The notes under the pieces are model-generated. The model made no database searches and was not told the origin of the DNA. It saw only the letters and a list, made by a program, of their open reading frames with translations. Of a stretch of 64,000 bases of DNA, positions 6,903 to 54,377 are shown piece by piece. Position numbers and translations under genes: made by a program. Origin of the DNA: Amycolatopsis deserti (GTDB lineage Bacteria; Actinomycetota; Actinomycetes; Mycobacteriales; Pseudonocardiaceae); the NCBI RefSeq assembly GCF_014653945.1, contig NZ_BNAU01000002.1:987914-1051913 (forward strand), read 5' to 3'. The first letter of the stretch is position 1, and each line of letters begins with the position of its first letter.

Positions 6903-6904
6903 CC

Positions 6905-7567: not shown

Positions 7568-7605
7568 GCCAGGCGGATTGCCCACGACGCCGGGCCGGGA
7601 AACGC

Positions 7606-8283: not shown

Positions 8284-8413
8284 GAGGCGAACCTGCCAGC
8301 GCCCGGACCGCGGCGAATCGGGCCACGGCGGACAGTTCCCGGCGCGGGGTCGGACCTGGGTATGACCGCACTGGTCGGACGTGCCCGCCCCGCGATCCGG
8401 ATATCGTGCGGAA

Positions 8414-9490: not shown

Positions 9491-10169
9491 GCCGCTGCGG
9501 GTGGTGATCGCCGACGACCAGGCGCTGCTGCGCGGCAGTTTCCGGTTGCTGGTGGACAGCGAACCGGACATGACGGTCGTCGGCGAGGCGGCGACCGGCG
9601 CGGAGGCGGTCGAGGTGGTGCGGGCGACGCGGCCGGACGTGGTGCTGATGGACGTGCGGATGCCCGGGATGGACGGCATCGCGGCGACGCGGCTGCTCAC
9701 CGAGCGGGTGCCGTCGGCGCGGGTGCTGATCCTCACGATGTTCGACCTGGACTCCCACGTCTTCGACGCGCTGCGGGCGGGTGCGGCCGGGTTCCTGCTG
9801 AAGGACACCCGGCCCGTCGACTTGTGCGCCGCCATCCGCGTGGTCGCCGCCGGGGACGCGCTGCTGGCCCCCGCCGTGACGCGGCGGCTGATCGCCGAGT
9901 TCGCCCGCACGACCGCGCCCCGCCCGGCGCCGAGCCGCGACCTCGACGTGCTCACCCCGCGCGAGACGGAGGTGCTGACGCTGATCGCGCACGGCCTGTC
10001 GAACGCCGAACTGGCCGAACGCCTGCACCTGTCGATGGCGACGGTGAAGACCTACATCGGACGGCTGCTGACCAAGCTGCCCGCGCGCGACCGCGCCCAG
10101 CTGGTGGTCATCGCCTACGAGAGCGGGCTGGTCACCGCGTCAGGAGGGCGGTCAGCGGAACCGCGGTGA
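9483..10169 (+). CDS. Response regulator, NarL/LuxR family
   Basis: 228 residues: receiver domain (1-120) with acidic pocket DD at 11-12, phospho-acceptor Asp 57 in VVLMDVRMPG and conserved Lys 107 in FLLKDTRP, then a LuxR-type HTH (about 155-215; LTPRETEVLTLIAHGLSNAELAERL in two parts, MATVKTYIGRLLTKL). Start is TTG 9483, inside the kinase 3' end; no later start would keep the first receiver strand. The 3' end overlaps the converging membrane protein gene by 38 bases. Confidence 0.92.
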   Translation: MPEPLRVVIADDQALLRGSFRLLVDSEPDMTVVGEAATGAEAVEVVRATRPDVVLMDVRMPGMDGIAATRLLTERVPSARVLILTMFDLDSHVFDALRAGAAGFLLKDTRPVDLCAAIRVVAAGDALLAPAVTRRLIAEFARTTAPRPAPSRDLDVLTPRETEVLTLIAHGLSNAELAERLHLSMATVKTYIGRLLTKLPARDRAQLVVIAYESGLVTASGGRSAEPR

Positions 10170-10533
10170 GCCACGCCCAGCCGCCGAGGCCGACGACGTG
10201 CGCGGCCCGCCACGCGACGGGGGCGGCGCGCACCACGCGGCCGACGAGCAGCAGCTCGCACAGCCAGCGCGCGCCCCAGAAAATGGTTTGCGCCGCCAGC
10301 ACGATCACGGGCAGCACGCCCGGCGCGAGCAGCTCGTCGACCGGCCACAGCAGCGCGCCGAGGACCACGCAGGTCAGCCCGATGAACCCGGTGTGCAGCC
10401 CGACGACGAGCCGGGACAACGGACTCGCCGCGACGAGGTCAGCCGGCCACCCGAGCAGCCGCGGCAGCACGAGGTGGGCGACCCCCAGCACGATCGCGAC
10501 CGTGCCGGCCAGGCGCATCTGCAGCTCCAGCAT
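10132..10533 (-). CDS. Small four-helix membrane protein, DoxX-like in size
   Basis: 133 residues with four predicted membrane helices (LAGTVAIVLGVAHLVLP, LVVGLHTGFIGLTCVVLGAL, VLPVIVLAAQTIFW, VVGLGGWAWLTAV). I do not recognise the family with certainty; the size and topology are like DoxX or DUF4345 proteins. The ATG at 10533 overlaps the last unit of the tandem array that separates it from the methyltransferase gene. It may be the final gene of that operon, pushed away by the array. The 3' end overlaps the response regulator gene. Confidence 0.65.
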   Translation of the reverse strand: MLELQMRLAGTVAIVLGVAHLVLPRLLGWPADLVAASPLSRLVVGLHTGFIGLTCVVLGALLWPVDELLAPGVLPVIVLAAQTIFWGARWLCELLLVGRVVRAAPVAWRAAHVVGLGGWAWLTAVPLTALLTR

Positions 10534-10909
10534 CACGCCACCTCCGCCGGGCGCCCCCGCGGTGGGCGTCGGTAGGCCACCGTCACGCCACCTCCACCGC
10601 GGGCGCCGTGACCAAGTGCGACGGCCGCAGCCGCGTGGCGGCCCGCGGTGCCACGCGCAAGTAGACCAGCCAGCACGCCACCTCCACCGCGGCCGCAGTG
10701 ACCAAAGGCGACGGCCGCAGCCGCGCGCCGGCCGGCACTGCCACGCGCACGTCACGCCGCCTCCACCGCGGGCGCGGTGACAAGGGCGACGGCCGCAGCC
10801 GCGCGGTCTGCCCGCACTGCCATCACGCCACCTCGAACGCCGTCGTCATCACCAGGGGCGTCCGGCGCAGCCGCAGGCCCGCCACGCGCACCCACACGAC
10901 CATCACGCC
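10533..10909. repeat. Six-unit tandem array of methyltransferase gene 3' ends
   Basis: Reading the minus strand, the last 15-16 codons of the methyltransferase (RRTPLVTATAFEVA, stop) recur downstream. Unit starts, marked by the complement of the stop (TCACGCC), are at 10533, 10583, 10673 (stop base changed to GCA), 10752, 10823 and 10903; spacing is 50, 90, 79, 71 and 80. Copies still translate as RLRRTPLVMTTAFEVA, RLRPSPLVTAAAVEVA and RLRPSHLVTAPAVEVA, diverging with distance from the gene. No other gene is visible in the array. Confidence 0.85.
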
Positions 10910-11592
10910 ACCTCGAACGCCGTCGCTGTCACCAAGGGCGTCCGGCGCACCCGGGCGACCCGCCGCAAACCAGCCTGGGCCGCGACGCGCTCCCACTCCG
11001 CGCGCGGGTAGAAGTGCCACGCGCCCGGTCCGAACGCCACCACGTTCGCCGCGTCGCGGTGGTGCTCCACCAGCACCAGTCGCCCGCCCGGCCGCAGCAC
11101 CCGCCGCGCCTCGCGGAACAACGCCTCCCGTCCGGCGGGCGTGCGCAGCTCGTGCGCGGCGAGCACCGCCAGCACGACGTCCACCGCCCCCGTCGCCAGC
11201 GGGAGCGCCTCCGGCCGCACCGGCACCGCCCTCGCCGGGTAGCGCTTCCGCGCCCGCCGGATCGACGCCTCGACCGGGCCGCGCGGATCGAGCACGTCCA
11301 GCACGACACCGACGGAGCCCGGCAGCAGGGCGGGCAGCGTCGGCGAGACCTCGTCGAACCCCGCGGTCACCAGCACGTGCCGCCGTACCCGCGCGGGCAG
11401 CACCGGCCGCAGCCACGTCCACCGGTAGAGACCGCACAGGTCGTAGACCCACCACGACGCCGCCAGGCTCGCCACCGTGAACCACGCCGCGCCGGCCCGC
11501 ACCGGCTTCGGCACCGGCGCGCAGGCGACCACCGCGCCGGCCAGCACCTTCGGCCAGTTGAACGCCAGCACCTGCGCCACCCCGCGCATCAC
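10903..11592 (-). CDS. Class I SAM-dependent methyltransferase, membrane-anchored
   Basis: 229 residues. Two hydrophobic helices near the N-terminus (VLAGAVVACAP, AWFTVASLAASWWVYDL) probably anchor it in the membrane; a divergent Rossmann methyltransferase follows (HVLVTAGFDEV, VGVVLDVLDP, REARRVLRPGGRLVLVEH, the last being the typical post-motif I segment of UbiE-like enzymes). Start is GTG 11592, overlapping the stop of the DUF2071 gene; ATG 11589 is an alternative. As the last of four coupled genes it could methylate the product of the BtaA-like enzyme, but the substrate is unproven. Its 3' end is copied in the array downstream. Confidence 0.8.
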   Translation of the reverse strand: MMRGVAQVLAFNWPKVLAGAVVACAPVPKPVRAGAAWFTVASLAASWWVYDLCGLYRWTWLRPVLPARVRRHVLVTAGFDEVSPTLPALLPGSVGVVLDVLDPRGPVEASIRRARKRYPARAVPVRPEALPLATGAVDVVLAVLAAHELRTPAGREALFREARRVLRPGGRLVLVEHHRDAANVVAFGPGAWHFYPRAEWERVAAQAGLRRVARVRRTPLVTATAFEVA

Positions 11593-38541: not shown

Positions 38542-38754
38542 CGCGCCCTCGCTCCCTTCGAAAGTTGTGGTCCGAACGGAGTCACTTCTTCCTGTTTGCG
38601 ACCTTCCAGTGGCCAGTTCGCGACAGACATCTTCCTACCGTGCGCAGAAGTGGTTAGTTTCCCAGAGCATCAGTAGCCCGCTGCTGGGAGGGCAGAGATC
38701 AATGCCGATCCGATCCCGATTCACGCTGCCGGCCGGTCTCCGGGCGGGCGTGAA

Positions 38755-38979
38755 GTGACCGCCACGCTCGACCAACCCCTCAGAGCCGCCCACCTCACCG
38801 CCGAAGAGCTGGCGGTCCTCGCGCTGCTCGCCGACGGCCTGCCCGTCGACGCGGTCGCGCGGCGGCTCAACCTGTCCAAACGCACGGTGCAGCGCCGGAT
38901 CCGGCGCATCTGCGACCGGCTGGACGTGCACGCCCCGATCCAGGCCGTGGTCTGGGCCGCGCGGCACAAGCTCATCTGA
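38755..38979 (+). CDS. Single-domain LuxR-type HTH protein (left of the copper/sugar cluster)
   Basis: 74 residues consisting of little more than a LuxR-type HTH: LTAEELAVLALLADGLPVDA, VARRLNLSKRTVQRRIRRIC, then DRLDVHAPIQAVVWAARH. No receiver or sensor domain is present. A second protein with the same layout and closing segment (CDRLGVATPIQAVVWAVRR) lies at 46287-46532, on the other side of the secreted oxidation genes. GTG 38755. It is 41 bases before the large ThuA protein gene, so it probably sits in that operon. The 213 bases before it hold no gene. Confidence 0.8.
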   Translation: MTATLDQPLRAAHLTAEELAVLALLADGLPVDAVARRLNLSKRTVQRRIRRICDRLDVHAPIQAVVWAARHKLI

Positions 38980-39020
38980 AACCGAGCGGGGAAACCCGCG
39001 CAGTCCGAGCGAGGGATGGT

Positions 39021-42000
39021 ATGCGCCACCGACGTGTCCTCGAACCGAACCGATCAAGACGCCGGTTCCGCCGGGTACTGGCCCAATTGTGCGGGCTGGT
39101 CCTGCTCACCGCCGTGCCCGTGCTGCCCGCACTCGCGGCACCGGCACCCGTGCCACAGCAACAACAACAAGCCCCCGAACCCATCCGGGTCCTGGTCTTC
39201 CACGGCCCCTCCGACCGCCAGGCCGACCCCGTGAACACCGCCGCCGCGGCCATCCAGGAACTCGGCCGCACCGGCGGGTTCCAGGCCGACGTGGCCGCCG
39301 ACCCGGCCGCCTTCACCCCGGCCAACCTCGCGCGCTACCGCGGCGTCGTGTTCCTCTCCGCCAACTCGGTGACGCTCAGCGCCGCGCAGGAGGACGCGCT
39401 CAAGGCGTTCGTCGCCGCGGGCAACGGGTTCGTCGGCGTCCACGACGCCGCCCGCGCACAGTCCACTTCGGACTGGTTCACCGGCCTGATCGGCACCCGG
39501 CCGGCCACCAGCCCGGACACCGTGCAGCAGGCCGTCGTCGACGTGACCGACCGGCAGCACCCGGCCAACGCCGGCCTGCCGCTGAACTGGACCCGCTCCG
39601 ACCAGTGGCTGAACTGGAGCCCGAACCCGGTCGGCCAGGTGCACACGATCGCGCAGGTCGAGGAGTGGAAGTACCAGCCGGGACAGGGCGCCAACGGCGC
39701 GTTCCACCCGGTGTCCTGGTGCCGCGACTACTCCGGCGGCCGCTCCTTCTACACCGGCATGGGCCGCACCGTCGAGAGCTACACCACCGACCAGCTCTTC
39801 CGCGGCCACCTGCTCGGCGCGATCCGGTGGACCACCGGCATGGTGCGCGGCGACTGCAAGGCCACGATCGCCTCGAACTACACCGTCGAGCGGCTCACCA
39901 AACCGAACACCGCCGGCCAGCTCGACCAGATCGGCGAGCCGCACGGCCTGACGATCACCCCCGACGGCAAGGTGTTCTACATCGGCAAGGCGGCCTGCCC
40001 GTCGGGCCCGATCGTGGACTGGAACGACCCCAACGTGGGGCTGGGCTGCGGCACCATTCACCAGTGGGATCCGAAGACCAAGCAGGTCAAGCTGCTCACC
40101 ACGCTGCCGGTGATGGGCAACCGCGGCAGCGGTGACGAACTGGTCAAGAACGAAGAGGGCCTGGTCGGCATGACGCTCGACCCGAACTTCGCGCGCAACG
40201 GCTGGTTCTACGTCTACTGGATGCCGCACTCCTCCATCGACCGGGAGAAGCGGATCGGCCAGCGCACGGTGTCCCGCTTCACCTACGACGCCGCGCGCCA
40301 GACCATCGACCAGGCCACGCGCAAGGACCTGCTGCAGTGGCCGGCGCAGATCCACAGCTGCTGCCACGCCGGTGGCGGCATGGCGTTCGACGACGCCGGC
40401 AACCTCTACATCGGCGTCGGCGACAACAACTCCTCCGGCGGCTCCGACGGCTACTCCGGCAACAACTGGACGGCCGACTACCAGGGCGTCTCGTTCCAGG
40501 ACGCGCGCCGCACGTCGGGCAACACCAACGACCTCAACGGCAAGATCCTGCGCATCCACCCGGAGCCGGACGGCACCTACACGATCCCGCCGGGCAACCT
40601 GTTCACCGGCGCCGAGGAGGGCGGCGGCAAGACCCGGCCGGAGATCTACGTGATGGGCGTGCGCAACATCGCCCGGCTGGCCATCGACAGGCAGCACGAC
40701 TGGCTCACCGCGGGCTGGGTCGGCCCGGACGCCGGCGCGCCGAACCCGGAGCTGGGCCCGGCCAAGTACGAGACGGCCACCGTCATCACCTCGGCGGGCA
40801 ACCAGGGCTGGCCGTACTGCATGGGCAACCGGCAGCCCTACCGCGACCGCAGCAACACCGACGCCAGCGTGCTCACCGGCTGGTACGACTGCGACAACCT
40901 GAAGAACACCTCGCCGCGCAACACCGGCCTGGTGGACATCCCGCCCGCGCGGGACAACGCGATCTGGTACTCGCCGCAGGGCGGCGGCCCGGTCTACCCG
41001 GCGCGCGCGGACGGCAGCGGTATCCCGTCCTACGTGCAGTCCGAGGCGACCTACACCGAGCCCTACCTCAAGGGCGGCGGCCAGGCCGTGATGTCCGGTC
41101 CCACCTACCACCGCGCCGAGGTGAACACCGCCAGCGGTGTCGCGTGGCCGGCGTACTGGGAGGACAAGTGGTTCATCGGTGACGAGTCCAACGGCAACAA
41201 CCGGATCGCGGTGACCCTGGACCCGGCCCGCGTGCCTGCCCAGGGCGCGCCCGCGTTCGCCGAGGACCTGCGGCAGATCATCAAGGGCGGCGGTGGGGAC
41301 ACCGGCCTGCAGAGCTGGATGGACGCCAAGTTCGGCCCGGACGGCGCGCTGTACCTGCTGGACTACGCCGGCGGCTTCTTCAGCCTCGACCCCAACCAGA
41401 AGCTGCTGCGCATCACCTACCACGGCGGGGCGGCGACCCCGGCTCCGACGGCCGCCACGGTCGGGACCACCACGCAGGCCGGTCCGATGACCATGGCGTT
41501 CAACGGCGCCAAGGCCGGTGGTGTCGCGTGGCGCTGGGACTTCGGTGACGGCACCACCTCCACCGAGGCCAACCCGAAGCACACCTACCTGCGCGGCGGC
41601 ACCTACTACGCGACCCTCGAGGTCACCTACGCCGACGGGGAGAAGGCCACCGCGAACCTGCCGGTGACCGTCAGCTGCCCGGCGCCCGACGCCCGGCAGA
41701 AGGTGTGGCTGCTGGACAGCGAAACCGCGGTGCCCAACCGCAACATCGGCCTCGGCTGCACGATCAACGACCTGGTGGACGACGAGCGGCCGTGGGCGAG
41801 CCACGACGCCTTCACCACCTACGTCACCGATCTGGCGGCGAAGCTGCGTGGCTTCGGGCTGCTGTCCGACAAGGAGGCCAACCAGCTGACCCGGGCGGCC
41901 TCGGCGTCCCCGGTCGGCCGGTCCACCGCCTACGAATGGCTCTTCGACGGCACCTCGACGGCCGGCTGGAGCCAGGCCCCGGACGGCCGGTTCGACCTGC

Positions 42001-42575
42001 AACCGGACGGCACGCTGCACAGCGCGGGCGGCATGGGCATGCTGTGGTACTCCGGCAAGGCGTTCGGCGACTTCTCGGTGCGGCTGCAGTTCCGGGACGT
42101 GGCACCGGCCGGTGACCGGGCCAACAGCGGGGTGTTCACGCGGTTCCCCGATCCACGCATCCCGCTGGAGCAACGCCCGCCGGGCAGCTGCGGCACGGTC
42201 GGCTCGGCACGGACCTCGCAGGCGTGGGTCGCGATCTACTGTGGACAGGAGATCCAGATCAACGACAACACCGCGGGCGACGTGCAGAAGACCGGTTCGG
42301 TCTACAACTTCTCGCAGGTGGGCCTGGACCGGGCGATGCCGACGCCGAAGGGCGTGTGGAACGACTACGAGGTGCGGGTGACCGGCCAGCACTACACGAT
42401 CATCCGCAACGGCGTGGTGATCAACGAGTTCGACAACACGCCCGGCAAGCAGTCCTCGCGCGCCGGTGACCCGCCGACCGATCTGCGGCAGTTCTTCACC
42501 GGCTTCATCGGGCTGCAGAACCACAGCGACCGCGACGTGATCGAGTTCCGCAACATCCGGGTGCGGCAGCTGTAA
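39021..42575 (+). CDS. Exported four-domain protein: ThuA, PQQ-type sugar dehydrogenase, PKD, DUF1080
   Basis: 1184 residues with an N-terminal signal region (about 1-41, arginine-rich before LVLLTAVPVLPALAAPAP). Domains in order: ThuA-like (55-270; VLVFHGPSDRQ, FVGVHDAA, HPVSWCRDYSGGRSFYTGMG), a soluble PQQ glucose/sorbosone dehydrogenase propeller (285-815; GEPHGLTITPDGKVFYIG, HSCCHAGGGMAFDDAGNLYI, YVMGVRNIARLAID), PKD (832-886; WRWDFGDGTTS), and DUF1080 (970-1184; YEWLFDGTSTAGW, NSGVFTRFPDPR), the 3-keto-glycoside hydrolase-type lectin-like fold. It likely oxidises an extracellular sugar. PQQ synthesis genes are not in the window. Confidence 0.88.
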   Translation: MRHRRVLEPNRSRRRFRRVLAQLCGLVLLTAVPVLPALAAPAPVPQQQQQAPEPIRVLVFHGPSDRQADPVNTAAAAIQELGRTGGFQADVAADPAAFTPANLARYRGVVFLSANSVTLSAAQEDALKAFVAAGNGFVGVHDAARAQSTSDWFTGLIGTRPATSPDTVQQAVVDVTDRQHPANAGLPLNWTRSDQWLNWSPNPVGQVHTIAQVEEWKYQPGQGANGAFHPVSWCRDYSGGRSFYTGMGRTVESYTTDQLFRGHLLGAIRWTTGMVRGDCKATIASNYTVERLTKPNTAGQLDQIGEPHGLTITPDGKVFYIGKAACPSGPIVDWNDPNVGLGCGTIHQWDPKTKQVKLLTTLPVMGNRGSGDELVKNEEGLVGMTLDPNFARNGWFYVYWMPHSSIDREKRIGQRTVSRFTYDAARQTIDQATRKDLLQWPAQIHSCCHAGGGMAFDDAGNLYIGVGDNNSSGGSDGYSGNNWTADYQGVSFQDARRTSGNTNDLNGKILRIHPEPDGTYTIPPGNLFTGAEEGGGKTRPEIYVMGVRNIARLAIDRQHDWLTAGWVGPDAGAPNPELGPAKYETATVITSAGNQGWPYCMGNRQPYRDRSNTDASVLTGWYDCDNLKNTSPRNTGLVDIPPARDNAIWYSPQGGGPVYPARADGSGIPSYVQSEATYTEPYLKGGGQAVMSGPTYHRAEVNTASGVAWPAYWEDKWFIGDESNGNNRIAVTLDPARVPAQGAPAFAEDLRQIIKGGGGDTGLQSWMDAKFGPDGALYLLDYAGGFFSLDPNQKLLRITYHGGAATPAPTAATVGTTTQAGPMTMAFNGAKAGGVAWRWDFGDGTTSTEANPKHTYLRGGTYYATLEVTYADGEKATANLPVTVSCPAPDARQKVWLLDSETAVPNRNIGLGCTINDLVDDERPWASHDAFTTYVTDLAAKLRGFGLLSDKEANQLTRAASASPVGRSTAYEWLFDGTSTAGWSQAPDGRFDLQPDGTLHSAGGMGMLWYSGKAFGDFSVRLQFRDVAPAGDRANSGVFTRFPDPRIPLEQRPPGSCGTVGSARTSQAWVAIYCGQEIQINDNTAGDVQKTGSVYNFSQVGLDRAMPTPKGVWNDYEVRVTGQHYTIIRNGVVINEFDNTPGKQSSRAGDPPTDLRQFFTGFIGLQNHSDRDVIEFRNIRVRQL

Positions 42576-42589
42576 GCAACTCCCGTTTC

Positions 42590-42622
42590 CCCGGTGGCGC
42601 CGCCGCGTGCGGCGCCACCGGG
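42590..42622 (+). terminator. Perfect hairpin between the ThuA protein and cupredoxin genes
   Basis: CCCGGTGGCGCCGC (42590-42603) pairs fully with GCGGCGCCACCGGG (42609-42622) around CGCGT. It fills most of the 68-base gap and lacks a T run, so it may reduce rather than stop read-through, or protect the upstream message. Confidence 0.5.
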
Positions 42623-42643
42623 CTCCACCCTGCGAGGAAACCC

Positions 42644-44239
42644 ATGAGAATTCTGCGTGGCGCGCTGGTGGCCGCGACGGCGGGACTGTGCCTGCTCACC
42701 GGCACGACCACCGCCGCGATCGCCGAGCCGGTGCCGATCACCGCGGCGGCGGAGCAGGTGCTGACCTGGACCGCCGACGACAGCATGACCTCCTACGCCT
42801 CGGCACCGGCGACGGCGGTGGCGGGCACGGCGACCATCGTGTTCGAAAACAGCACGGAGACCGGCAACACCACCGGCATGACCCACACCCTGACCTTCGA
42901 CACCTCGACGCCGGGCTACAACCACGACGTCGACCTCAACATCACCGCGAGCCCGCTGGACGCCCAGCACGGGCTGCACCAGGCGCAGGTGACCCTCACC
43001 CCGGGCAAGTACCGCTACTACTGCGCGATGCCCGGGCACACGATGAGCGGCGAGCTGATCGTCACCGAGAGCGGTGAGCAGGACACCACGCCACCCGAGG
43101 TGACCGCGACCGTCGACGGCACCACCGACCCCGACGGCAACTACGTCGGCACGGCAACGCTGACGCTGACCGCGACTGACGACAGCTCCGGAGTGGACGC
43201 CGTCGAGTACACCCTCGACGACGACACCTACCGCCCTTACAGCGGCCCGGTCACGATCACCACGCCGGGCGCGCACACCGTGCACTACCGCGCCACCGAC
43301 AAGGCGGGCAACGCGAGCGACCCGAAGACGCTGGTGGTCAACGTCGTGCAGCCCAACGACGACACCACCGCGCCGCAGGTGACCGCGAGCGTCGCGGGTG
43401 AGCGCAACGACGCCGGGAACTACGCGGGCAGCGCCACCGTGACGCTCACCGCGACCGACGCCGAATCCGGCGTGGCGAAGATCGAGTACACAATGGATGG
43501 TGGCGCGTACGCCACCTACAGCCAGCCGGTCGTCCTGGGCACGGGAACCCACACGCTGACCTACCGCGCCACCGACAAGGCCGGCAACACCAGCGAGCCG
43601 AAGACCGTGACGGTGACGGTGGACCCGCTCGGCGACGTCACGGCGCCGTACGTGACAGCCGACCTGGACGGCGAGCTGAACACCGAGGGTTCCTACGCCG
43701 GCAAGGCCACGCTCGTCCTGGCCGCCACCGACACCGAATCCGGGATCGCCTCGATCGAGTACGACCTGGACGGCGCCGGGTTCGTCCGCTACGGCCAGCC
43801 GGTGACCATCACCGCGGTCGGCACGCACATGCTGCACTACCGCGCGACCGACCGGGCCGGCAACACCAGCGCGGTGCAGATGCTGTCGTTCACCATCGCC
43901 GAAGCCGGTGACGTGACCGCGCCGGTGGTGTCCGTGCAGCTGTCCGGGGCGCAGAACTGGTCGTGGGACTACGTGGGCCCGGTGACGGTCACGCTGTCCG
44001 CCACGGACGAGGCCTCGGGTGTCGCGCGCATCCAGTACTCGCTGGACGGCAACGTGTTCACCCGCTACCGCAAGCCGTTCGTCGTCGACCACGTCGGCAC
44101 CCACACGATCCGCTACCGCGCCACCGACGAGGCCGGCAACACCAGCGAGATCGGCAGCGTCACGTTCACCGTGGTGTCGTCGACCGGCCCCTCGAAGCAG
44201 GAGCGGCAGCCGAACCCGGCGTTCGAACGCATGGTGTGA
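42644..44239 (+). CDS. Secreted cupredoxin with four Ig-like repeats
   Basis: 531 residues. A Sec signal (1-28) leads to a cupredoxin domain (35-145) with type 1 copper ligands: His near 80 in GMTHTLTFDT and Cys 126, His 131, Met 133 in YYCAMPGHTM. Four repeats of about 93 residues follow (148-240, 242-337, 338-432, 433-520), each with VTLTATDxxSGV and HTxxYRATDKAGN patterns of bacterial Ig-like/OmpL47 modules. A copper electron carrier held away from the membrane or on a polymer by the repeats is the natural reading. ATG 42644; the laccase gene follows 27 bases on. Confidence 0.88.
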   Translation: MRILRGALVAATAGLCLLTGTTTAAIAEPVPITAAAEQVLTWTADDSMTSYASAPATAVAGTATIVFENSTETGNTTGMTHTLTFDTSTPGYNHDVDLNITASPLDAQHGLHQAQVTLTPGKYRYYCAMPGHTMSGELIVTESGEQDTTPPEVTATVDGTTDPDGNYVGTATLTLTATDDSSGVDAVEYTLDDDTYRPYSGPVTITTPGAHTVHYRATDKAGNASDPKTLVVNVVQPNDDTTAPQVTASVAGERNDAGNYAGSATVTLTATDAESGVAKIEYTMDGGAYATYSQPVVLGTGTHTLTYRATDKAGNTSEPKTVTVTVDPLGDVTAPYVTADLDGELNTEGSYAGKATLVLAATDTESGIASIEYDLDGAGFVRYGQPVTITAVGTHMLHYRATDRAGNTSAVQMLSFTIAEAGDVTAPVVSVQLSGAQNWSWDYVGPVTVTLSATDEASGVARIQYSLDGNVFTRYRKPFVVDHVGTHTIRYRATDEAGNTSEIGSVTFTVVSSTGPSKQERQPNPAFERMV

Positions 44240-44266
44240 CTCCTCCCTTTCACGAAAGGACCACTC

Positions 44267-45187
44267 ATGGCCAAGATGACGCGGCGCGCCGTGCTCGGCA
44301 CCGCGGCGGCCGGGCTGGCCGCGTCGGTGCCCGGCGTCGCGGCGGCGGCACCGGTGCGGGCGGCGGGCACGACCCGGCGGATCACGATGTACGCCGAGAA
44401 GATCTCCGACGAGCTGTACGGCTACGGCCTCGCGCCCGGCGGGGCGACCGTGCCGGGACCGGTGCTGGAGATGTGGGAGGGCGACACCCTCGAGATCGAC
44501 CTGGTCAACACCACCGACCGGGTGCTGTCGCTGCACCCGCACGGCGTCGACTACGACGTGAACTCCGACGGCACGCTGATGAACGGATCCGCGGTGATGC
44601 CGGGCCAGACGCGGCGCTACACCTGGCGCAGCCATGTGGGTTACCGCCGGGCGGACGGGTCGTGGGCCGAGGGCACGGCCGGTTACTGGCACTACCACGA
44701 CCACGCGATGGGCACCGAGCACGGCACCGAGGGTGTGCTCAAGGGCCTGTACGGGGCGCTGGTGGTGCGGCGGCAGGGCGATCTGCTGCCGAAACGGCAG
44801 TTCACCGTGGTGTTCAACGACATGACGATCAACAACCGGTCGCACCACGACGCGCCGACGTTCGAGGCGAACCTCGGCGAGCGCGTGGAGTGGATCGCGA
44901 TCGGGCACGGCAGCAACTTCCACACCTTCCACCTGCACGGGCACCGCTGGCTGGACAACCGCACCGGCACGCGGACCAGCGAGTACGACCCGAGCCCGCT
45001 GATCGACATCAAGGACCTCAACCCCGGGGTGTCGTTCGGGTTCCAGGTGATCGCCGGTGAGGGGGTCGGGCCGGGGATGTGGATGTACCACTGCCACGTC
45101 CAGAACCACTCGGACATGGGGATGGCCGGGATGTTCCTGGTGCGCAACGCCGACGGCACGATGCCGGCCGGTGTCCACGAGCACTGA
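44267..45187 (+). CDS. Small two-domain laccase (multicopper oxidase), Tat-exported
   Basis: 306 residues with a Tat signal ([20 protein letters not shown]) and two cupredoxin domains. All copper motifs are present: [24 protein letters not shown] and [12 protein letters not shown] (T1 Cys and Met in the last). The size matches actinomycete small laccases that work as trimers and reduce oxygen to water. In this operon it would be the terminal oxidase for electrons from the sugar dehydrogenase through the cupredoxin; that path is inference. Its substrate range could also be phenolic. ATG 44267 after AAAGGA. Confidence 0.92.
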
Positions 45188-45208
45188 TTTTCTGGGAAGG
45201 AGAGCGGC

Positions 45209-46111
45209 ATGTGTGGTGGTGTGCCCGTCGTCGTCGACCGGCGGCGGTTCCTGAAGGGTGTGGCGGCGACAGCGGCCGGGGTGGCGGCGGTGGGGGTGCC
45301 CGCGACGGCGGCCGCCTCGCCGGGGCGGCGGATTCCGAACAGCCGGATCGGGCTGCAGATGTACTCGGTGCGGGACGCGTTCATGTCCCAGCCGGAGGCG
45401 GTGCTGCGGGCGCTGGCCCGGGCCGGGTACCGGAACCTGGAGTTCGCCGGGTTCCCGGGCGGAACCGATCCGGCGCACGCGCGGGAGGTCCGGCCGCTGC
45501 TGGACAAGTACGGCCTGCGGGCGGTGTCGAGTCACCACGGGTACGCGGAGTTCCTCGACGACGCGCGGCTGGGTGAGCTGATCGAGATGGCGCGGATCCT
45601 GGGGCAGCGCTACATCGTGTGCCCCGGCGGGGTGCCGGACACGGCGGAGGGGTTCGCCGAGGCCGGTCCGGCGTTCAACCGGGCCGGCGAGCGGATCCGG
45701 CGGGCGGGGATGAAGCTGGGGTACCACAACCACACCAGCGAGTTCACCGGCCACGGCCCCGACGGGCGGAGCTTCTACCAGATCCTGCTGGACGGTTCGG
45801 ATCCCGAGTTGCTGTACCTGGAGCTGGACATGGGGTGGTCGTCGGCGGCCGGGCTGAGCGCGCAGGAGAACGTCGAGCTGATCCGGGCGAACCGCGGGCG
45901 GATGCTGCTGGCGCACGTGAAGGACCTGGACGCTTCCGGCAACCTGGCGGACCTGGGCACCGGGGTGGTCGACTACCGCACCATCCTCAGCGGCGCGACG
46001 CGGCTGGGAATGCGCGAGTTCATCATCGAGAACGACGACCAGAGCAACCCGCTGACCGATTCGCGGGCCGACCGGATGCACGACTACCTGGCCGCGCTAC
46101 AGCTGCGGTAG
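45209..46111 (+). CDS. Tat-exported sugar phosphate isomerase/epimerase-like protein
   Basis: 300 residues with a Tat signal (DRRRFLKGVAATAAGVAAVG) and the AP-endonuclease-2-like TIM barrel of sugar isomerases: GLQMYSVRDAFMSQPEAVLR, SSHHGYAE, YHNHTSEF, LDMGWSS, HVKDLD and the ligand Glu in FIIENDD, so the metal-site residues are complete. Exported members of this family are known beside 3-keto-glycoside-processing genes, where some act on keto-glycosides. ATG 45209 follows GGAAGGAGAG. Last gene of the cluster. It would act on the product of the secreted dehydrogenase; this is inferred. Confidence 0.88.
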   Translation: MCGGVPVVVDRRRFLKGVAATAAGVAAVGVPATAAASPGRRIPNSRIGLQMYSVRDAFMSQPEAVLRALARAGYRNLEFAGFPGGTDPAHAREVRPLLDKYGLRAVSSHHGYAEFLDDARLGELIEMARILGQRYIVCPGGVPDTAEGFAEAGPAFNRAGERIRRAGMKLGYHNHTSEFTGHGPDGRSFYQILLDGSDPELLYLELDMGWSSAAGLSAQENVELIRANRGRMLLAHVKDLDASGNLADLGTGVVDYRTILSGATRLGMREFIIENDDQSNPLTDSRADRMHDYLAALQLR

Positions 46112-46286
46112 GGGGCCGGCCGGCGGCGCGCGGGGAGCACCCGCGCGCCGCCGCACCCACTACCCGGATTTGCAGCTGCACCAGGTGCGCGAGCACCCCA
46201 CCCACGCACCCCTTGGCCTCCCCACCCACCACTCCCCCGCTGCGGCGCCCCATGCGCCCCGGCGGCGCAGCCTCCCGGGCGCGCGG

Positions 46287-46532
46287 TCAAATCGCCCCGC
46301 GCCGAACGGCCCACACCACGGCCTGGATGGGCGTCGCCACGCCGAGGCGGTCGCAGACCGCCCTGATGCGTCGTCGTACGGTTCGCCCGGACAGGCCCAC
46401 CCGCTCGGCCACCTCCTCCGGCGACAGCCCCTCCGCGAGCAGCCCCAGCAGCACCAGGTCGCCGCGGGGCAGGTCGGTCACCTCTCCCACCAAGCGATCG
46501 TCATTCGCGCGGCCACGGTGGGTCAATGACAC
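46287..46532 (-). CDS. Single-domain LuxR-type HTH protein (right of the copper/sugar cluster)
   Basis: 81 residues: LVLLGLLAEGLSPEEVAERV, then GLSGRTVRRRIRAVCDRLGV and ATPIQAVVWAVRR. It is the paralogue of the 74-residue protein at 38755 and, like it, lacks any receiver or ligand domain. It is on the opposite strand, facing the cluster. The start is taken as GTG 46532. Its upstream region (46533-46548) is the stop region of the next gene, so its promoter may lie within that gene. Confidence 0.8.
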   Translation of the reverse strand: MSLTHRGRANDDRLVGEVTDLPRGDLVLLGLLAEGLSPEEVAERVGLSGRTVRRRIRAVCDRLGVATPIQAVVWAVRRGAI

Positions 46533-48367: not shown

Positions 48368-51300
48368 TCACACCGCCTGATCGATCGCGGCCTCGTAGAA
48401 GGCGTCCGCGAGCGCCATGATGACTGCGCTGATCCCGGGACCGTCGCTGAAGAAGTAGTCGGCCATGGTGTTGTGGGCTTCCTGGTTCTCGACGACTGCC
48501 TCGGTGACCGCGACTTGGAAGTCCTGCGACTCCATGAACTGCTTTTTCGAGTTCACCTTGGTCTGGTTGACCAGCTCCGGATAGGCGAGCAGTCGCTGAA
48601 CCAGCCCCTGCACGAACTCCCGGATCTGCGACTGGGTGAACGACTCGGCGCCGAAGAGGTCGTTCATCTTGTCGATGACCACCTGGAGAGCGACGTACTT
48701 CGGCTCCTTCCGTGCCCCGGTGCCCGCCGCGCTGATTCCCTTCAGCTCGCCGCCACCGGTCAGCGAGATGTCGACCGCGGTTCTCTTGCTGTGTTTGACA
48801 CCGACCAGAACCACGTCGGAGAGGTCGACTTCCGCCGACCACGATGAATCTGCGATGACCTTGTCCAAAAGCCGCAGGAAGATCGACAGCATCTCCATGT
48901 ACGGGTCGCCGTAATCGACGATCTGGCTCATGAAGTCGTAGAGCCGGACGTAAGTGGAGACGTCCTTGCGGAACAGGTCGAGGGTGTTGAGGGTGACCTT
49001 GTCGTCGGCTTCGATCGCTTTCGCGTAGCGGCGGGCGAACTCGTTCTTGGCCGGGCTGATCGCAGCAGAGAGCGCGTTGTTGCCTTTCCGGGTGACCCAC
49101 AGCTCAGCGACCTCGCGCACCTGCTCCGGGGTGTAAATCCCGGCCTGAGCGAGCTTCATCGCGAGGTGGACGACGACGTACGGGTCGGTCTCGGTCTCCA
49201 GCCTGGCATTGGTGTAGTAGGGCTCGAACGCAGCCCGAATGTCCTCGGGCTTGTTCACGAAGTCGATGACGAACGTCTTGCGCTTCTGCTCCCCGCCCGC
49301 CGTGCGATGGGTGCGGTTGAGCCGGGAGAGTGTCTGCACTGCCGTGACCCCGGAGAGCTTCTTGTCCACGTACATCGCCGAGAGCAGCGGTTGGTCGAAC
49401 CCCGTCTGGTACTTGTTGGCGACCAACATGATCTTGTACGTTGCGCCCTTGAAGGCGGCGGCCAAGTCAGAGCCGGCGCCGGGGTTCAAGTTGGCCTCGT
49501 TGAACTCGTCGTCCTTGCTCGGCTGGGGTCCCCAGTCCGAAGCCCACTCCTCGTCGTCCGCCATCGTTACCGACCCGGAGAAGGCGACCAGGGTGCGGTA
49601 GTTGTACGAGTCGTCCTTCGCGGCCCGCTTCGTGATGTAGGCGTCGATCGCCTTCTTGTACTTCACCGCGGCCTTGCGCGAGTCGGTCACGACCATCGCC
49701 TTCGCCTTGCCCTCCAGCAGGTGGGCGACGTTCACGTGGAAATGCTCGACGATGATCTGCACCTTCTGACTGATGTTGGTGGGGTGCAGCTTCACCCACC
49801 GCATCAGCCCTTTCCGCGCTGCGGCCTCCTCCACCACGACCTCGCCGTCGCCGCTCTCCACCTGACCGGCGATCTTCAGCGCGGTGTCGTAGGACTGGTA
49901 GCCCTTGAGCACGTCGAGGATGTAGCCCTCCTCGATCGCCTGCCGCATCGAGTAGAGGTGGAACTCGACCGGCTTGCCGTCAGGACCCTTGCGACCGAAG
50001 AGTTCCAAGGTCTTGTTCTTCGGCGTCGCGGTGAACGCGAAGTAGGAGATGTTCTCTGACTCGGCCCGCTCGGTCATCTCCGCGGCCAGTATCGACTCGA
50101 CGTCGACGGAGCCGCCTTCCTCGATCTCCTGGACCTCTTCCGCGGTCAGCACGGCCTTGAGTTTGGAGGAGATCTGCCCGGACTGCGAAGAGTGCGCCTC
50201 GTCCGCGATCACCGCGAACCGCTTCCCCTTTAGCCCCTTGTCGGCCCGGATCTCATCGAGCGCGAACGGAAAGGTCTGCACCGTCACTGCGATGATCAAT
50301 TCACCGTTTTTCAACGCGGTCGCGAGCAACCCGGACTTCGACTTCGCCCCTGCCTTGCGGACGTCCTCCGGGCTGATCGTGGCGACGATCTTCCCCGACC
50401 CGTCGATCTGCCGGATCGCCTCCTGGAGCTGCCCGTCGAGGACGGTACGGTCCACGACCACGATCACCGAGTCGAAGACCTTCTCGTCGTTCACGTGCAG
50501 CCGCGCCAGCCGGTGTGCGGTCCAGGCGATGGTGTTGGTCTTCCCCGACCCTGCGGAGTGCTCGATCAGGTAGCGCTGCCCCACCCCCTCCTCGCGAACC
50601 GCGTCCACGATGTTCGTCACGGCCTCCCATTGGTGGAACCGCGGGAAGAGCATGGTCGTACGCCGCACCGAGGTGCCGGTGGTGACATCCCACTCCTCCT
50701 TGGTCTCCACGATCATCAGCCGGCCGATGATGTTGAGCCAGGTGTGCTTCTCCCAGACCCGCTCCCACAGGTACGCCGTCGCAGACCGTCCGCCTTCACC
50801 TGGTGGGTTTCCCGCACCCCCGTCATGGCCCATGTTGAACGGCAGGAAGTGGGTCTTCTCGCCTTCAAGTCGGGTGGTCATCGCGGCCAAGTCGTTGGAG
50901 ACCGCGAAGTGCACCAGCGCCCGGTGCCCGAACGACAGCAGCGGCTCCGGCCGCCCGTTGGTCATCGGGTGCCGGTTCTTGCGATACTGGTTGATCGCCT
51001 CATCCAACGACTGGGTGAAGTCGGTCTTCAACTCCACGGTGGCGACCGGGAGCCCGTTGATGAAAAACACCAGGTCGATGCTGCGATGGTCGGCGGTGGA
51101 GAAATGCACCTGCCGCATCACCCGCACCCGCATCGCCGCGTACTGCTCGTTGGTGGTCGCGTTCAGGCTGGTCTCGGGGCGGAACTGCGCCATCTTCAAC
51201 CGACCACCGCCGATATACTGCACCCCGTTGCGCAGGATGTTCAGCATCCCGCCGCCGTGTTCGAGAGGTTTGTCGAGCGCCGTGGTCAGCACGTCGAGAA

Positions 51301-51499
51301 ACTTCGCCTCCGACCCAGCCGCCTTCAAGGCCTTTTTATACGGCGTCGACTGGGTCTCTTCCAGCCAGGCGAACAGGTCCTCGGGAAACAGGGCGCGCTC
51401 ACGGTCGTAGCCGGTGTCGTTCGCCGAGTACAGCCAGCCATGCTCGGCCAGGTACTCGCAGATCTCGGTTTCGAAGACGATCTCGTTGTGATCGGCCAT
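48368..51499 (-). CDS. hsdR: Type I restriction enzyme, R subunit (HsdR)
   Basis: 1043 residues. N-terminal PD-(D/E)xK nuclease with IDLVFFINGLPVATVELK (near 140-157), then an SF2 translocase: Walker A HSAGSGKTNT (near 313-322), VVVDRTVLDGQLQ, DEAHSSQSG (near 431), AFTATPKNKT and later YQTGFDQPLL and QTLSRLNRTH motifs, and a C-terminal helical part that docks on the methylase. It cuts DNA after ATP-driven translocation when HsdM/S find an unmethylated site. ATG 51499 (AAGAGG eight bases before) is preferred over GTG 51502. Appears intact, last of the hsd operon. Confidence 0.93.
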   Translation of the reverse strand: MADHNEIVFETEICEYLAEHGWLYSANDTGYDRERALFPEDLFAWLEETQSTPYKKALKAAGSEAKFLDVLTTALDKPLEHGGGMLNILRNGVQYIGGGRLKMAQFRPETSLNATTNEQYAAMRVRVMRQVHFSTADHRSIDLVFFINGLPVATVELKTDFTQSLDEAINQYRKNRHPMTNGRPEPLLSFGHRALVHFAVSNDLAAMTTRLEGEKTHFLPFNMGHDGGAGNPPGEGGRSATAYLWERVWEKHTWLNIIGRLMIVETKEEWDVTTGTSVRRTTMLFPRFHQWEAVTNIVDAVREEGVGQRYLIEHSAGSGKTNTIAWTAHRLARLHVNDEKVFDSVIVVVDRTVLDGQLQEAIRQIDGSGKIVATISPEDVRKAGAKSKSGLLATALKNGELIIAVTVQTFPFALDEIRADKGLKGKRFAVIADEAHSSQSGQISSKLKAVLTAEEVQEIEEGGSVDVESILAAEMTERAESENISYFAFTATPKNKTLELFGRKGPDGKPVEFHLYSMRQAIEEGYILDVLKGYQSYDTALKIAGQVESGDGEVVVEEAAARKGLMRWVKLHPTNISQKVQIIVEHFHVNVAHLLEGKAKAMVVTDSRKAAVKYKKAIDAYITKRAAKDDSYNYRTLVAFSGSVTMADDEEWASDWGPQPSKDDEFNEANLNPGAGSDLAAAFKGATYKIMLVANKYQTGFDQPLLSAMYVDKKLSGVTAVQTLSRLNRTHRTAGGEQKRKTFVIDFVNKPEDIRAAFEPYYTNARLETETDPYVVVHLAMKLAQAGIYTPEQVREVAELWVTRKGNNALSAAISPAKNEFARRYAKAIEADDKVTLNTLDLFRKDVSTYVRLYDFMSQIVDYGDPYMEMLSIFLRLLDKVIADSSWSAEVDLSDVVLVGVKHSKRTAVDISLTGGGELKGISAAGTGARKEPKYVALQVVIDKMNDLFGAESFTQSQIREFVQGLVQRLLAYPELVNQTKVNSKKQFMESQDFQVAVTEAVVENQEAHNTMADYFFSDGPGISAVIMALADAFYEAAIDQAV

Positions 51500-52635
51500 C
51501 ACGCCGCCTCTTGCACGTCGATCTGACCAGTTACGGCTGCGGTGATCAACGACCCTCGGCGCTCACGGGCGAGCTCGATGAACCGCTCGGTCTCTGCGAT
51601 CAGTGTGTCGATCTTCACGGTCTGCTCATCAAGGTGCTGGGCAATCCGGCGCTGTTCCTCGACTGGAGGCAGCGTCAAGGGCAACCGACCAAACGTCGAC
51701 CAGTTGCGAAAGTCAACGCTTCGCTCTCGTACATTCGGTGCCTGAGTAGCGAGGAATCCGCTGCGCCCGAGGTAGCGAAGGAGTTGAGCAACATAGGGCA
51801 AGTGGTCACCAGCGACCGCTTCGCAGACGTGATACACGGGCGTCGCGTTTCCATGGCTGTCCGAGATTCCGACGGCACCGGCGAATCCGTCGAGCGCGTG
51901 GAACACGAGGTCGCCGGGACGGATCTCCTGATACCCATGTTCGGTATTAGAAAATGTGTAGCCGTCCTCCCGGCGATTGCTTCTGAGGGTCACAACGCCG
52001 TCCCGGAAGGCAGTGACAACACCAAGGCCCGGCACGGCAGGGCGGGAGAGCGGCCGAAGCACCCGCTTGACCGTTGTGTGGCGAGCGACGATTGGCGCGC
52101 CCAGAAGCTCATCGGCTTCAGCTTCGCGTCGTTCGCGAAGCATCTCGATCAGGCGCTGCTGCTCCTCGATGAGTGTGTCGATGCGGGTGGTCTCTCGGTC
52201 GAGGTAGTCGGCGATGGCACGTTGCTGTGACGGGGCGAGGACAGGGAGTTCAAGCCCACCGACGATGGACGTGCTCACAGCCGCGAACGTCGAACCTGTC
52301 GCCAGAACCTCGAGTTCAGGACGCGAGTGCAGCAGCCACCACTTGACGTAGCCCGGCACAGCTCCGCACGGACGGATCGCGCAAAGCCCGCGGCCGATCC
52401 CGTACGCACGATCTGCCACATTGACCGCACCGACAGGGGCCCGTACTGAAAGTAGGATATCGCCTGGTTCACACTGCTTCGGAGGAACGGAGCACTCGTA
52501 CCGTGGAGTCGGATGCGTCGGACCGAACTCGGCATTCCCCTGGAGGAACGGTTGACCATCCCCCAGAAGATTGACGTCTTCAGACGAGGGCGACTGCCCA
52601 GCGATAAGGTCCGCGACGTACTTGAGCGGTGTCAC
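51499..52635 (-). CDS. hsdS: Type I restriction enzyme, specificity subunit (HsdS)
   Basis: 378 residues in the two-target-domain layout: TRD1 (1-145), a conserved helix LDRETTRIDTLIEEQQRLIE, TRD2 (190-325) and the second helix LDEQTVKIDTLIAETERFIE. Each TRD reads one half of a bipartite recognition site and the helices set the spacing. The two helices are similar, as usual. Neither half-site can be predicted without homologues. GTG 52635 overlaps the hsdM stop, and the stop overlaps the hsdR start. No recombinase or spare hsdS lies nearby, so no phase variation is indicated. Confidence 0.93.
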   Translation of the reverse strand: MTPLKYVADLIAGQSPSSEDVNLLGDGQPFLQGNAEFGPTHPTPRYECSVPPKQCEPGDILLSVRAPVGAVNVADRAYGIGRGLCAIRPCGAVPGYVKWWLLHSRPELEVLATGSTFAAVSTSIVGGLELPVLAPSQQRAIADYLDRETTRIDTLIEEQQRLIEMLRERREAEADELLGAPIVARHTTVKRVLRPLSRPAVPGLGVVTAFRDGVVTLRSNRREDGYTFSNTEHGYQEIRPGDLVFHALDGFAGAVGISDSHGNATPVYHVCEAVAGDHLPYVAQLLRYLGRSGFLATQAPNVRERSVDFRNWSTFGRLPLTLPPVEEQRRIAQHLDEQTVKIDTLIAETERFIELARERRGSLITAAVTGQIDVQEAA

Positions 52636-54377
52636 CGTTCAACCTCCCGTAGCAAGTCGAGGATCTTGGCGACCTGCTTTTCCAGGTCGGCGTCGATCTC
52701 GGCGAGGGGGCGGGGTGGGACGTACTTGTAGAACTGGCGGGTGAAGGGGATCTCGTAACCGGTCTTGACCTTGGCCCAGTCGATCCAGGCGTCAGGCACG
52801 TGTGGCTTCACCTCGGCGTCGAAGTACGCCTGGATGACCTCGGCCTTGCCGGCCGCGCCCTCGTTCGAGCCGCCGTAGGTGAACGGCACGTTCTCGGTGT
52901 CGCGCTTCTTCGTGTCCGGTTTGGGTTTGCCTTTGCGGTCCACGACCGGCTTGCCGTTCTCGTCCAACAGCGGCCGCTCGACGGTGATGGTCCAGTAGCC
53001 GAACTCGTCGATGCGCAGCACCTTGGAGAAGTCCGGGTCCGCATCTTCGAAGTCGGCGTACAACTTCAGGATCTTGGCGCGGTCGGTGTCGCTGATCTCG
53101 CGGCCCTTGGAGCCGAGGTTCTTGCGCATCTTGGTCCAGAACGACGAACCGTCGATGAGCTGCACCTTGCCCTTGCGGTCGGGGTGCTTGGTGTTGTCGA
53201 GAATCCAGATATAGGTCGCGATTCCAGTGTTGAAGAACATGTTCGACGGGAGCGCCACAATCGCATCAACCAGGTCGTTCTCCAGCAGCCACTTCCGAAT
53301 GTTGGAGGGACCGGACTCGGCAGCCCCGTTGAACAGGGGCGAGCCGTTCATGACGATCCCGGCCCGGCCGCCGCCGTCCTCCGGCGCCCGCATCTTGTGG
53401 GCCAAGTGGAGCAGGAAGAGCATCTGCCCATCCGATGTCGATGGAAGACCAGGAGCGAACCGGCCGTAGGGGCCCGCTTCGTCACGCTCCTTCGTGACTG
53501 CCTTGGCGTACTGCTTCCAGTCGACGCCGTACGGCGGATTGGACATGCAGAAGTCGAACTGGCGGCCCTTGAACGCGTCATCGGTCAGCGTGTTGCCAAA
53601 GGCGATGTTGGTCGCGTCGTGGCCCTTGGCCAGCAGATCAGACTTGCAGATCGCGTACGACTGCGGGTTGTACTCCTGGCCGTACAGGCTCAGCCTCGCG
53701 TCAGGGTTGTGGGTGAGCAGGTGCTCCTCAGCCAGAGCGAGCATGCCACCAGTGCCCGCGGTGGGGTCGTACAGGGTGCGGACGATGTTGGCCTCAGTCA
53801 GGACGGCGTCCCTCTCTGCGAAGAGCAGGTCGACCAGCAGCCGGATCGCGTCCCGCGGAGTGTAGTGGTCACCGGAGGTCTCGTTGGCGGCCTCGTTGAA
53901 CTTGCGGATGATGTACTCGAACGCGTCGCCCATGTCGGCGTTGGACACGACGTCCGGATGCAGGTCGACGGCCTTGAAGGACGTAACGACCTCGCGCAGG
54001 AGCCCCGCCTTCTCCAAGGTGAGAATTTCCTTCTTGAAGTCGAAGTACTCGAAGACGTCGACATCGGGCGAGAACCGGTCGATGTAGTCGGCCAAGTTGT
54101 CCGCCAGCCCGTCGGCATCGGCCAGCAGGTTGGCGAAGGAGTAGTTCGACGTGTTGTAGAACGGCCGACCGGTCGCCTTCTTTACCTCGATCCTGAGCCG
54201 GTTCGGATTGTCGTACTCCGCCGCCAACTTCCGCACCGTCTCCCGGTCAGGCTCGAGGATGCAGTCGAGGCGGCGCAGGATCGTGAGCGGCAGAATCACG
54301 TTGCCGTACTGGTTGGGGCGGTAGGGGCCCCGAAGCTGGTCGGCGATCGACCAGATGAAACTACCCAGCGTGCTCAC
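52632..54377 (-). CDS. hsdM: Type I restriction enzyme, modification subunit (HsdM, N6-adenine methylase)
   Basis: 581 residues: helical N-terminal domain (FIWSIADQLRGPYRPNQYGN), SAM motif DPTAGTGGML (near 202) and catalytic NPPYGVDWK (near 279), the N6-adenine motif. C-terminal part contacts HsdS. It methylates one adenine on each strand of the site. GTG 54377 follows AAGGAG; first gene of the M-S-R operon. The promoter should lie in 54378-54500, but no convincing boxes were found. Confidence 0.93.
   Translation of the reverse strand: MSTLGSFIWSIADQLRGPYRPNQYGNVILPLTILRRLDCILEPDRETVRKLAAEYDNPNRLRIEVKKATGRPFYNTSNYSFANLLADADGLADNLADYIDRFSPDVDVFEYFDFKKEILTLEKAGLLREVVTSFKAVDLHPDVVSNADMGDAFEYIIRKFNEAANETSGDHYTPRDAIRLLVDLLFAERDAVLTEANIVRTLYDPTAGTGGMLALAEEHLLTHNPDARLSLYGQEYNPQSYAICKSDLLAKGHDATNIAFGNTLTDDAFKGRQFDFCMSNPPYGVDWKQYAKAVTKERDEAGPYGRFAPGLPSTSDGQMLFLLHLAHKMRAPEDGGGRAGIVMNGSPLFNGAAESGPSNIRKWLLENDLVDAIVALPSNMFFNTGIATYIWILDNTKHPDRKGKVQLIDGSSFWTKMRKNLGSKGREISDTDRAKILKLYADFEDADPDFSKVLRIDEFGYWTITVERPLLDENGKPVVDRKGKPKPDTKKRDTENVPFTYGGSNEGAAGKAEVIQAYFDAEVKPHVPDAWIDWAKVKTGYEIPFTRQFYKYVPPRPLAEIDADLEKQVAKILDLLREVER

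Follow-up and report, generated by a model that had tools for sequence, protein, structure and literature searches.

A conserved dehydrogenase, cupredoxin and small laccase gene module in actinomycetes, possibly encoding an extracytoplasmic oxygen-linked redox chain

Introduction

What does a small laccase do for the bacterium that secretes it, and does it work with dedicated partners? This question is raised by four genes of Amycolatopsis deserti that lie in line on the plus strand at positions 39021-46111 of the window, i.e. the whole stretch of 64,000 nucleotides analyzed here (contig NZ_BNAU01000002.1, 987,914 to 1,051,913), to which all coordinates refer. They encode an exported fusion protein containing a propeller similar to soluble sugar dehydrogenases (DH, 39021..42575, 1184 amino acids), an exported cupredoxin (CUP, 42644..44239, 531 amino acids), a two-domain small laccase (LAC, 44267..45187, 306 amino acids) and an exported TIM barrel protein (ISO, 45209..46111, 300 amino acids), separated by intergenic gaps of 68, 27 and 21 bp. 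An earlier note, based on the letters of the window, had described four exported proteins encoded in line with short gaps, which we can confirm. Its span of 38755..46532 holds the four genes, but its limits have to be trimmed to 39021-46111, as the DH open frame starts at 38754 with its first ATG at 39021, while only a doubtful 119-amino-acid open reading frame (46170-46529) follows downstream of 46111. Signal sequences of all four proteins were judged by eye, whereby DH and CUP appear to carry Sec-like signals and LAC (TRRAVLG) and ISO (DRRRFLKG) twin-arginine signals.

Research on small laccases and their engineering span two decades, and their natural role in Streptomyces has been called speculation, with morphogenesis and pigmentation, lignocellulose and antibiotics being named (PMC7036934; papers are cited throughout by such numbers and from excerpts). 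The gene module described here is a lead to this unsettled role.

Results and Discussion

The conserved core of the locus consists of the three genes DH, CUP and LAC, which were found together in 20/20 compared genomes. These genomes stem from two samples. The first comprised 61 genomes, namely that of A. deserti and 60 relatives, in which LAC (E 1e-20 or better) and DH (at least 68 % identity) were detected in the same 13 genomes, with CUP alongside both in all of them (the window and the loci of 12 relatives); three further genomes (G025, G039 and G050) hold only DH paralogs of 37-42 % identity. The second sample consisted of 396 genomes drawn evenly from the phylum. It contained CUP in at least 8 genomes, the own one included, and LAC (E 1e-60) in at least 15. 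Of the 15 genomes listed for DH, 8 reached at least 57 % identity, these being the 8 CUP genomes with LAC beside it in each; as the genome searches scored up to 10, 5 and 2 first-look candidates per genome, the counts are lower bounds. With the own genome counted once, 13 and 7 genomes add up to the 20 module genomes. The seven module genomes of g45 were taken as Streptomyces, since their arrangement is matched only by named Streptomyces loci.

A scan of contigs with the CUP alignment, of which the best 80 of at least 525 related stretches were kept, extended this picture. Being chosen by CUP, the set shows the companions of CUP and not how often LAC goes without it, and at least two of its loci (L140 and L141) also belong to the 20 genomes. 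DH (here at least 50 % identity in the propeller), CUP and LAC are all present at 77 of the 80 loci, covering 28 named genera, and LAC is found at 79; the remaining locus, L218, ends at a contig end. The module is kept together despite changes in gene order and strand: among the 77 loci, 52 show LAC-DH-CUP on one strand, 19 a divergent LAC, 4 the order of the window and 2 another order, the starts used for ordering being approximate because the open reading frames run from stop to stop. It also occurs on plasmid p1 of S. fungicidicus, where the annotations read 'multicopper oxidase domain-containing', 'ThuA domain-containing' and 'family 16 glycoside hydrolase'. That dehydrogenase, cupredoxin and laccase belong together, as the earlier note had proposed from a single locus, is therefore better supported than its reader could know, with PQQ (pyrroloquinoline quinone) and the isomerase as the weak parts; the co-occurrence test it had suggested for all four genes favors the three and turned out poor for the isomerase.

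Pfam assigns to DH a ThuA domain (residues 56-271), a GSDH match with its best stretch at 346-602 (67.7 bits against a cut-off of 25), a PKD domain (808-884) that had gone unmentioned before and, following a tail of about 80 residues, a 3keto-disac_hyd/DUF1080 domain (974-1182). The propeller as modeled by AlphaFold (pLDDT 87.7, pTM 0.92) has the soluble PQQ glucose dehydrogenases (sGDH) 1qbi, 5min, 1cq1 and 1c9u as its top Foldseek matches in the PDB, and the list also holds the aldose dehydrogenases of E. coli and S. coelicolor as well as HHIP. The propeller is thus predicted to have the six-bladed sGDH fold. Residues were counted over 33 aligned sequences, i.e. 16 of the 20 module propellers and 17 paralogs. 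Within the motif Cys447-Cys448-His449 (40359..40367) the histidine aligns with the catalytic histidine of sGDH and Asd, and Arg548-Asn549 (40662..40667) is the counterpart of the quinone-side Arg228-Asn229 of sGDH. His449, Arg548, Asn549, Pro569, Asp570, Gly579 and Pro580 are invariant in 33/33 sequences, which suggests an active site; for sGDH, the matching His144 has been proposed to act as the base, with Arg228 and Asn229 flanking the quinone and Gly247 and Pro248 as Ca2+ ligands (PMC6881810). The vicinal cysteine pair directly ahead of His449 is present in 28/33 of these sGDH-like six-bladed propellers, and vicinal disulfides have been described as a canonical feature of PQQ alcohol dehydrogenases from bacteria (PMC13384848).

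CUP combines a predicted N-terminal cupredoxin fold (residues ~38-141) and a complete type 1 copper set with a series of repeats, which are Ig-type according to Pfam and OmpL47-type according to NCBIfam. Its blue-copper ligands His81, Cys127, His132 and Met134 (42884..43045) are invariant in 20/20 orthologs, and this His2-Cys-Met set is that of electron carriers. No Pfam cupredoxin family matched the CUP of the window at E 0.001; among its relatives one exceeds the cut-off of Pfam Copper-bind and another falls slightly under it. The best Foldseek match of the CUP model is auracyanin, with a TM score of only 0.53-0.55. Taken together, the ligands, repeats and auracyanin-like model bear out the type 1 copper protein on an Ig-repeat stalk that had been read from the letters.

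LAC matches Pfam Cu-oxidase_2 and Cu-oxidase_3 and, judged from its sequence relationship and its motifs for type 1 and type 2/3 copper, is a two-domain small laccase. An alignment inspected by eye gives 7 differences in 281 aligned residues to PDB 3t9w, including 3 where the aligned part of that chain begins, and the histidines and cysteines of the four copper motifs as well as Met286 are kept in 20/20 orthologs, so that the small laccase with all copper ligands, as claimed before, is upheld. At the module locus L112, LAC matches the S. coelicolor-type structure 3cg8 (E 7.5e-171). The type 1 copper of the small laccase SLAC has a potential of +0.375 to +0.50 V in solution (PMC9692349), which would suit a cupredoxin as donor. 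SLAC is furthermore described with a positive patch including Lys204 and Arg170 (PMC9692349), at which the LAC of the window appears to have Ser and Leu in the aligned places.

The DUF1080 domain is the 3-keto-disaccharide hydrolase family PF06439 and is matched by DH with 122.6 bits against a cut-off of 26.8. To this family belong BT2157, which hydrolyzes 3-ketotrehalose, and a protein for which 3'-ketolactose hydrolysis has been proposed (PMC9007349). The domain forms the end of DH in 13/20 module genomes and that of CUP in 7/20, the latter position being backed by Pfam for one CUP protein. Among the 77 CUP-chosen loci it is found on DH at 63 and on CUP at 14, all 14 from Streptomyces, and one Streptomyces locus (L192) carries it on DH. 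In four genomes (G023, G027, G032 and G033) the end of CUP moreover resembles DH residues 885-967 with 37-42 % identity; this region reads as FIMAH by eye, with no Pfam call in the window protein or at L080. Such an exchange of domains between DH and CUP suggests that both work on the same object.

ISO, an AP_endonuc_2 TIM barrel by Pfam, has 8bvk as its best solved match (E 1.8e-20), with 8tcd, a 'sugar phosphate isomerase', scoring almost as well (2e-20). The former is AtOGE, an O-glycoside beta-eliminase acting on 3-keto-glucosides (PMC10628242), and together with the PF06439 literature this match supports the earlier view that the DUF1080 and isomerase families are tied to 3-keto sugars. 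As a member of the conserved set, on the other hand, the isomerase did not hold and has to be regarded as an accessory gene: it adjoins the module in 9 genus members among the 20 module genomes (86-96 % identity), a homologue of 37-41 % lies near the module in G023 and G033, and none was found in the ~20 kb stretches of the other 9/20, namely G027, G032 and the 7 Streptomyces-like genomes. Only 5 of the 80 CUP-chosen loci show a homologue of at least 35 % identity. A second ThuA-GSDH protein is encoded at both L080 and L083, and the former locus has further genes for a Gfo/Idh dehydrogenase and for a protein that binds sugar; these extra sugar genes suggest sugar catabolism.

We propose that the three core proteins form an oxygen-linked redox module outside the cytoplasm. 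DH would use its sGDH-like propeller to oxidize a sugar or glycoside, with PQQ or another o-quinone as cofactor. Electrons would move singly to the blue copper of CUP and on to the type 1 copper of LAC, and LAC would reduce O2 to water. DUF1080, on DH or CUP depending on the lineage, and in some species also ISO, may then cleave the oxidized 3-keto glycoside. We regard this path from DH via CUP and LAC to O2 as the best explanation of the locus, with just short of an even chance of being right. A more specific version, which we hold to be unlikely, would make the small laccases of actinomycetes the cellular terminal oxidases of a dedicated secreted oxidative deglycosylation chain: the propeller with a remodelled cofactor site (Cys-Cys ahead of the catalytic His), using scavenged PQQ or an unknown quinone, would produce 3-keto-glycosides, the roving DUF1080 would cut them, and the electrons would run from cupredoxin to laccase to O2.

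A number of observations count against this proposal. On the genomic side, the other 7 of the 15 phylum genomes with LAC are without the module; they belong to more distant families, their laccases are of 49-55 % identity, and neither CUP nor DH was found in the 2.5-4 kb around LAC. L147 and L190 carry LAC and CUP without DH, and LAC stands alone in L223, a 12.8 kb Streptomyces plasmid stretch. On the side of the proteins, the net charges of CUP, LAC and the propeller are negative in 20/20, so that simple electrostatic pairing of CUP and LAC was considered and rejected, and classical sGDH oxidizes sugars to lactones (PMC6881810), i.e. at C1 and not at C3.

The weak part of the chain is PQQ as the putative cofactor of DH. 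The PQQ-type assignment of the earlier note stands with regard to the sGDH fold and the quinone-side His, Arg and Asn; it does not with regard to the residues clamping the PQQ carboxylates, which are mostly not conserved. The DH of the window lacks the Lys377/Arg406/Arg408-type clamp of sGDH, whereas E. coli YliI and the classical homologue of the own genome (C4:59586) have Lys and Arg-x-Arg in the alignment; the Arg-x-Arg of these two is Ser765-Trp766-Met767-Asp768 (41313..41324) in DH. The sGDH positions 377, 406 and 408 are those that we take, partly by assumption, to correspond to the respective YliI residues. Counted over the 32 sequences having a residue at the position, the first clamp position shows Lys in 0/32, the second Arg in 6/32 and Lys in 2/32, and the third Met in 28/32; 7 Streptomyces-like module proteins have Lys or Arg one residue before the second position. 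As AA12 enzymes bind PQQ without Lys377 (PMC6881789), the loss of the clamp casts doubt on PQQ and does not refute it. The pqq genes that had been suggested as a check gave a divided answer. While pqqE and pqqC of the own genome exceed their cut-offs, pqqC was found in only 10/20 module genomes (8/13 of the set of relatives including the own genome, 2/7 of the phylum draw); the other half may use external PQQ. Within family f1, pqqC occurs in 8/13 genomes with and 17/24 without the module, i.e. without association (Fisher p 0.72); only matches over the cut-off were counted, which left out a weak one in G022. PQQ synthesis was therefore rejected as a marker of the module. Mycofactocin was likewise rejected as general cofactor, its radical SAM maturase exceeding the cut-off in 11/20 module genomes and in 0/7 of the Streptomyces-like ones.

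HHIP, which is not known to be an enzyme, has the same fold as the propeller and shares the aligned histidine, which likewise speaks against our proposal. In line with this the propeller could be a binding domain and the whole ThuA, propeller and DUF1080 fusion a glycan-binding or glycan-hydrolyzing protein without redox role, for which the mostly missing clamp residues and the lacking tie to pqqC could be cited as well. The seven residues invariant in 33 sequences point to an active site instead, and the propeller is constantly paired with two redox copper proteins, so that we consider this reading improbable. We assign a similarly low probability to CUP being a copper delivery or storage partner that loads LAC, with DH and DUF1080 performing a separate, merely co-regulated glycan-cleaving step. 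The link of CUP to LAC is indeed tighter than that to DH, given the two loci without DH, and in other lineages LAC lies beside a different cupredoxin; the ligand set of CUP, however, is typical of electron carriers, and the location of DUF1080 on either DH or CUP ties CUP to DH. Somewhat more weight, although still unlikely, is given to an attack on lignocellulose with redox cycling, in which LAC would oxidize phenols and lignin fragments to radicals and quinones and DH, with CUP, would re-reduce them at the expense of sugars or glycosides, the two flows meeting in small phenolics. Fungal sugar dehydrogenases reduce such phenol-derived radicals and quinones, and the PKD and Ig domains, as well as CBM6 in paralogs, suit polymer binding. 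That small laccases act on lignin, a further point against our own proposal, is seen from poplar being delignified by the small laccase of Amycolatopsis sp. 75iv2/75iv3 (PMC5294454) and from less lignin being released by a laccase mutant of S. ipomoeae (PMC5675413). Redox cycling leaves unexplained, however, why a dedicated blue-copper partner is present at 79/79 judgeable CUP-chosen loci.

All components belong to known families, yet their combination was not found described: no published account of the module turned up among the open-licence papers listed by the searches, in agreement with the earlier note, which knew of no described system with this set. Periplasmic dehydrogenase-cupredoxin chains are familiar from methylamine dehydrogenase with amicyanin and quinohaemoprotein alcohol dehydrogenase with azurin. 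They share with the present case a dehydrogenase with a dedicated blue-copper carrier, but here a secreted laccase, in place of a membrane oxidase, is put forward as the terminal acceptor. LAC resembles the small laccases (SLAC, S. coelicolor SCO6712; 3t9w) with the 7/281 differences given above; excerpts of the small laccase literature treat the enzyme alone, as a phenol or lignin oxidase, and name no partner proteins. With sGDH, Asd and AA12, DH shares the six-bladed propeller, the catalytic His and Arg-Asn, and differs from them by lacking the Lys and Arg-x-Arg clamp, by its vicinal cysteine pair and by its fusion to ThuA, PKD and DUF1080. The DUF1080 proteins BT2157 and CCNA_01705, which act with LacABC, and the AtOGE operon of Agrobacterium have DUF1080 and the AtOGE-like TIM barrel in common with the locus. 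The core module, by contrast, is without LacABC or Gfo/Idh, and its propeller would do the oxidizing, with electrons passing to copper proteins and O2. The presence of the module in many soil actinomycetes allows a testable guess at the cellular job of the laccase, and its constant cupredoxin and dehydrogenase partners across the 28 named genera mean that three purified proteins would suffice for the test. The module could also provide biofuel cells with a natural electron chain that runs from sugar to oxygen outside the membrane.

Pairing of laccase and blue copper may extend past the module. Small laccases of other lineages (L121, 8399-9910; L122, 10547-12067) adjoin a different protein with Copper-bind and NosD/beta-helix domains, and cupredoxin-like motifs, seen as motifs only, were noted close to LAC in L105/L119 (one genome), L110 and L111. 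A tandem pair of laccase genes was observed beside CUP at L190 (5838-8089), where DH is absent.

After the three core genes, the next commonest neighbor was detected at no fewer than 23 of 87 loci, a lower bound given by a crude open reading frame picker, and a direct search found it at 27/100 loci, where it immediately follows CUP in 25 cases. An example (L211, 10431-11459) encodes an exported-looking protein of 342 amino acids for which no Pfam match was found; hosts include Micromonospora, Actinoplanes, Umezawaea and Saccharothrix. A LacI-type regulator, its Pfam identity taken from L112, lies near LAC at 13/100 loci, all Streptomyces or Streptomyces-like. A promoter and terminator scan gave no signal above chance.

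At L083 (192-8663) TatD-like, phosphodiesterase and isomerase genes, perhaps an ebo-like cluster, stand next to the module and the second ThuA-GSDH gene; a second gene of the latter kind accompanies the module at L080, too. The own genome furthermore contains a paralogous set (L086, C1:1628001-1644000; 6048-11493) consisting of an AP_endonuc_2 enzyme, a 1092-amino-acid GSDH-PKD-CBM6-FIMAH protein and a PGA_cap protein near an apparent sugar ABC transporter; this stretch gave no match to a laccase or cupredoxin. On the minus strand of the window, positions 48368-54377 seem to hold type I restriction-modification genes (HsdR, HsdS, HsdM).

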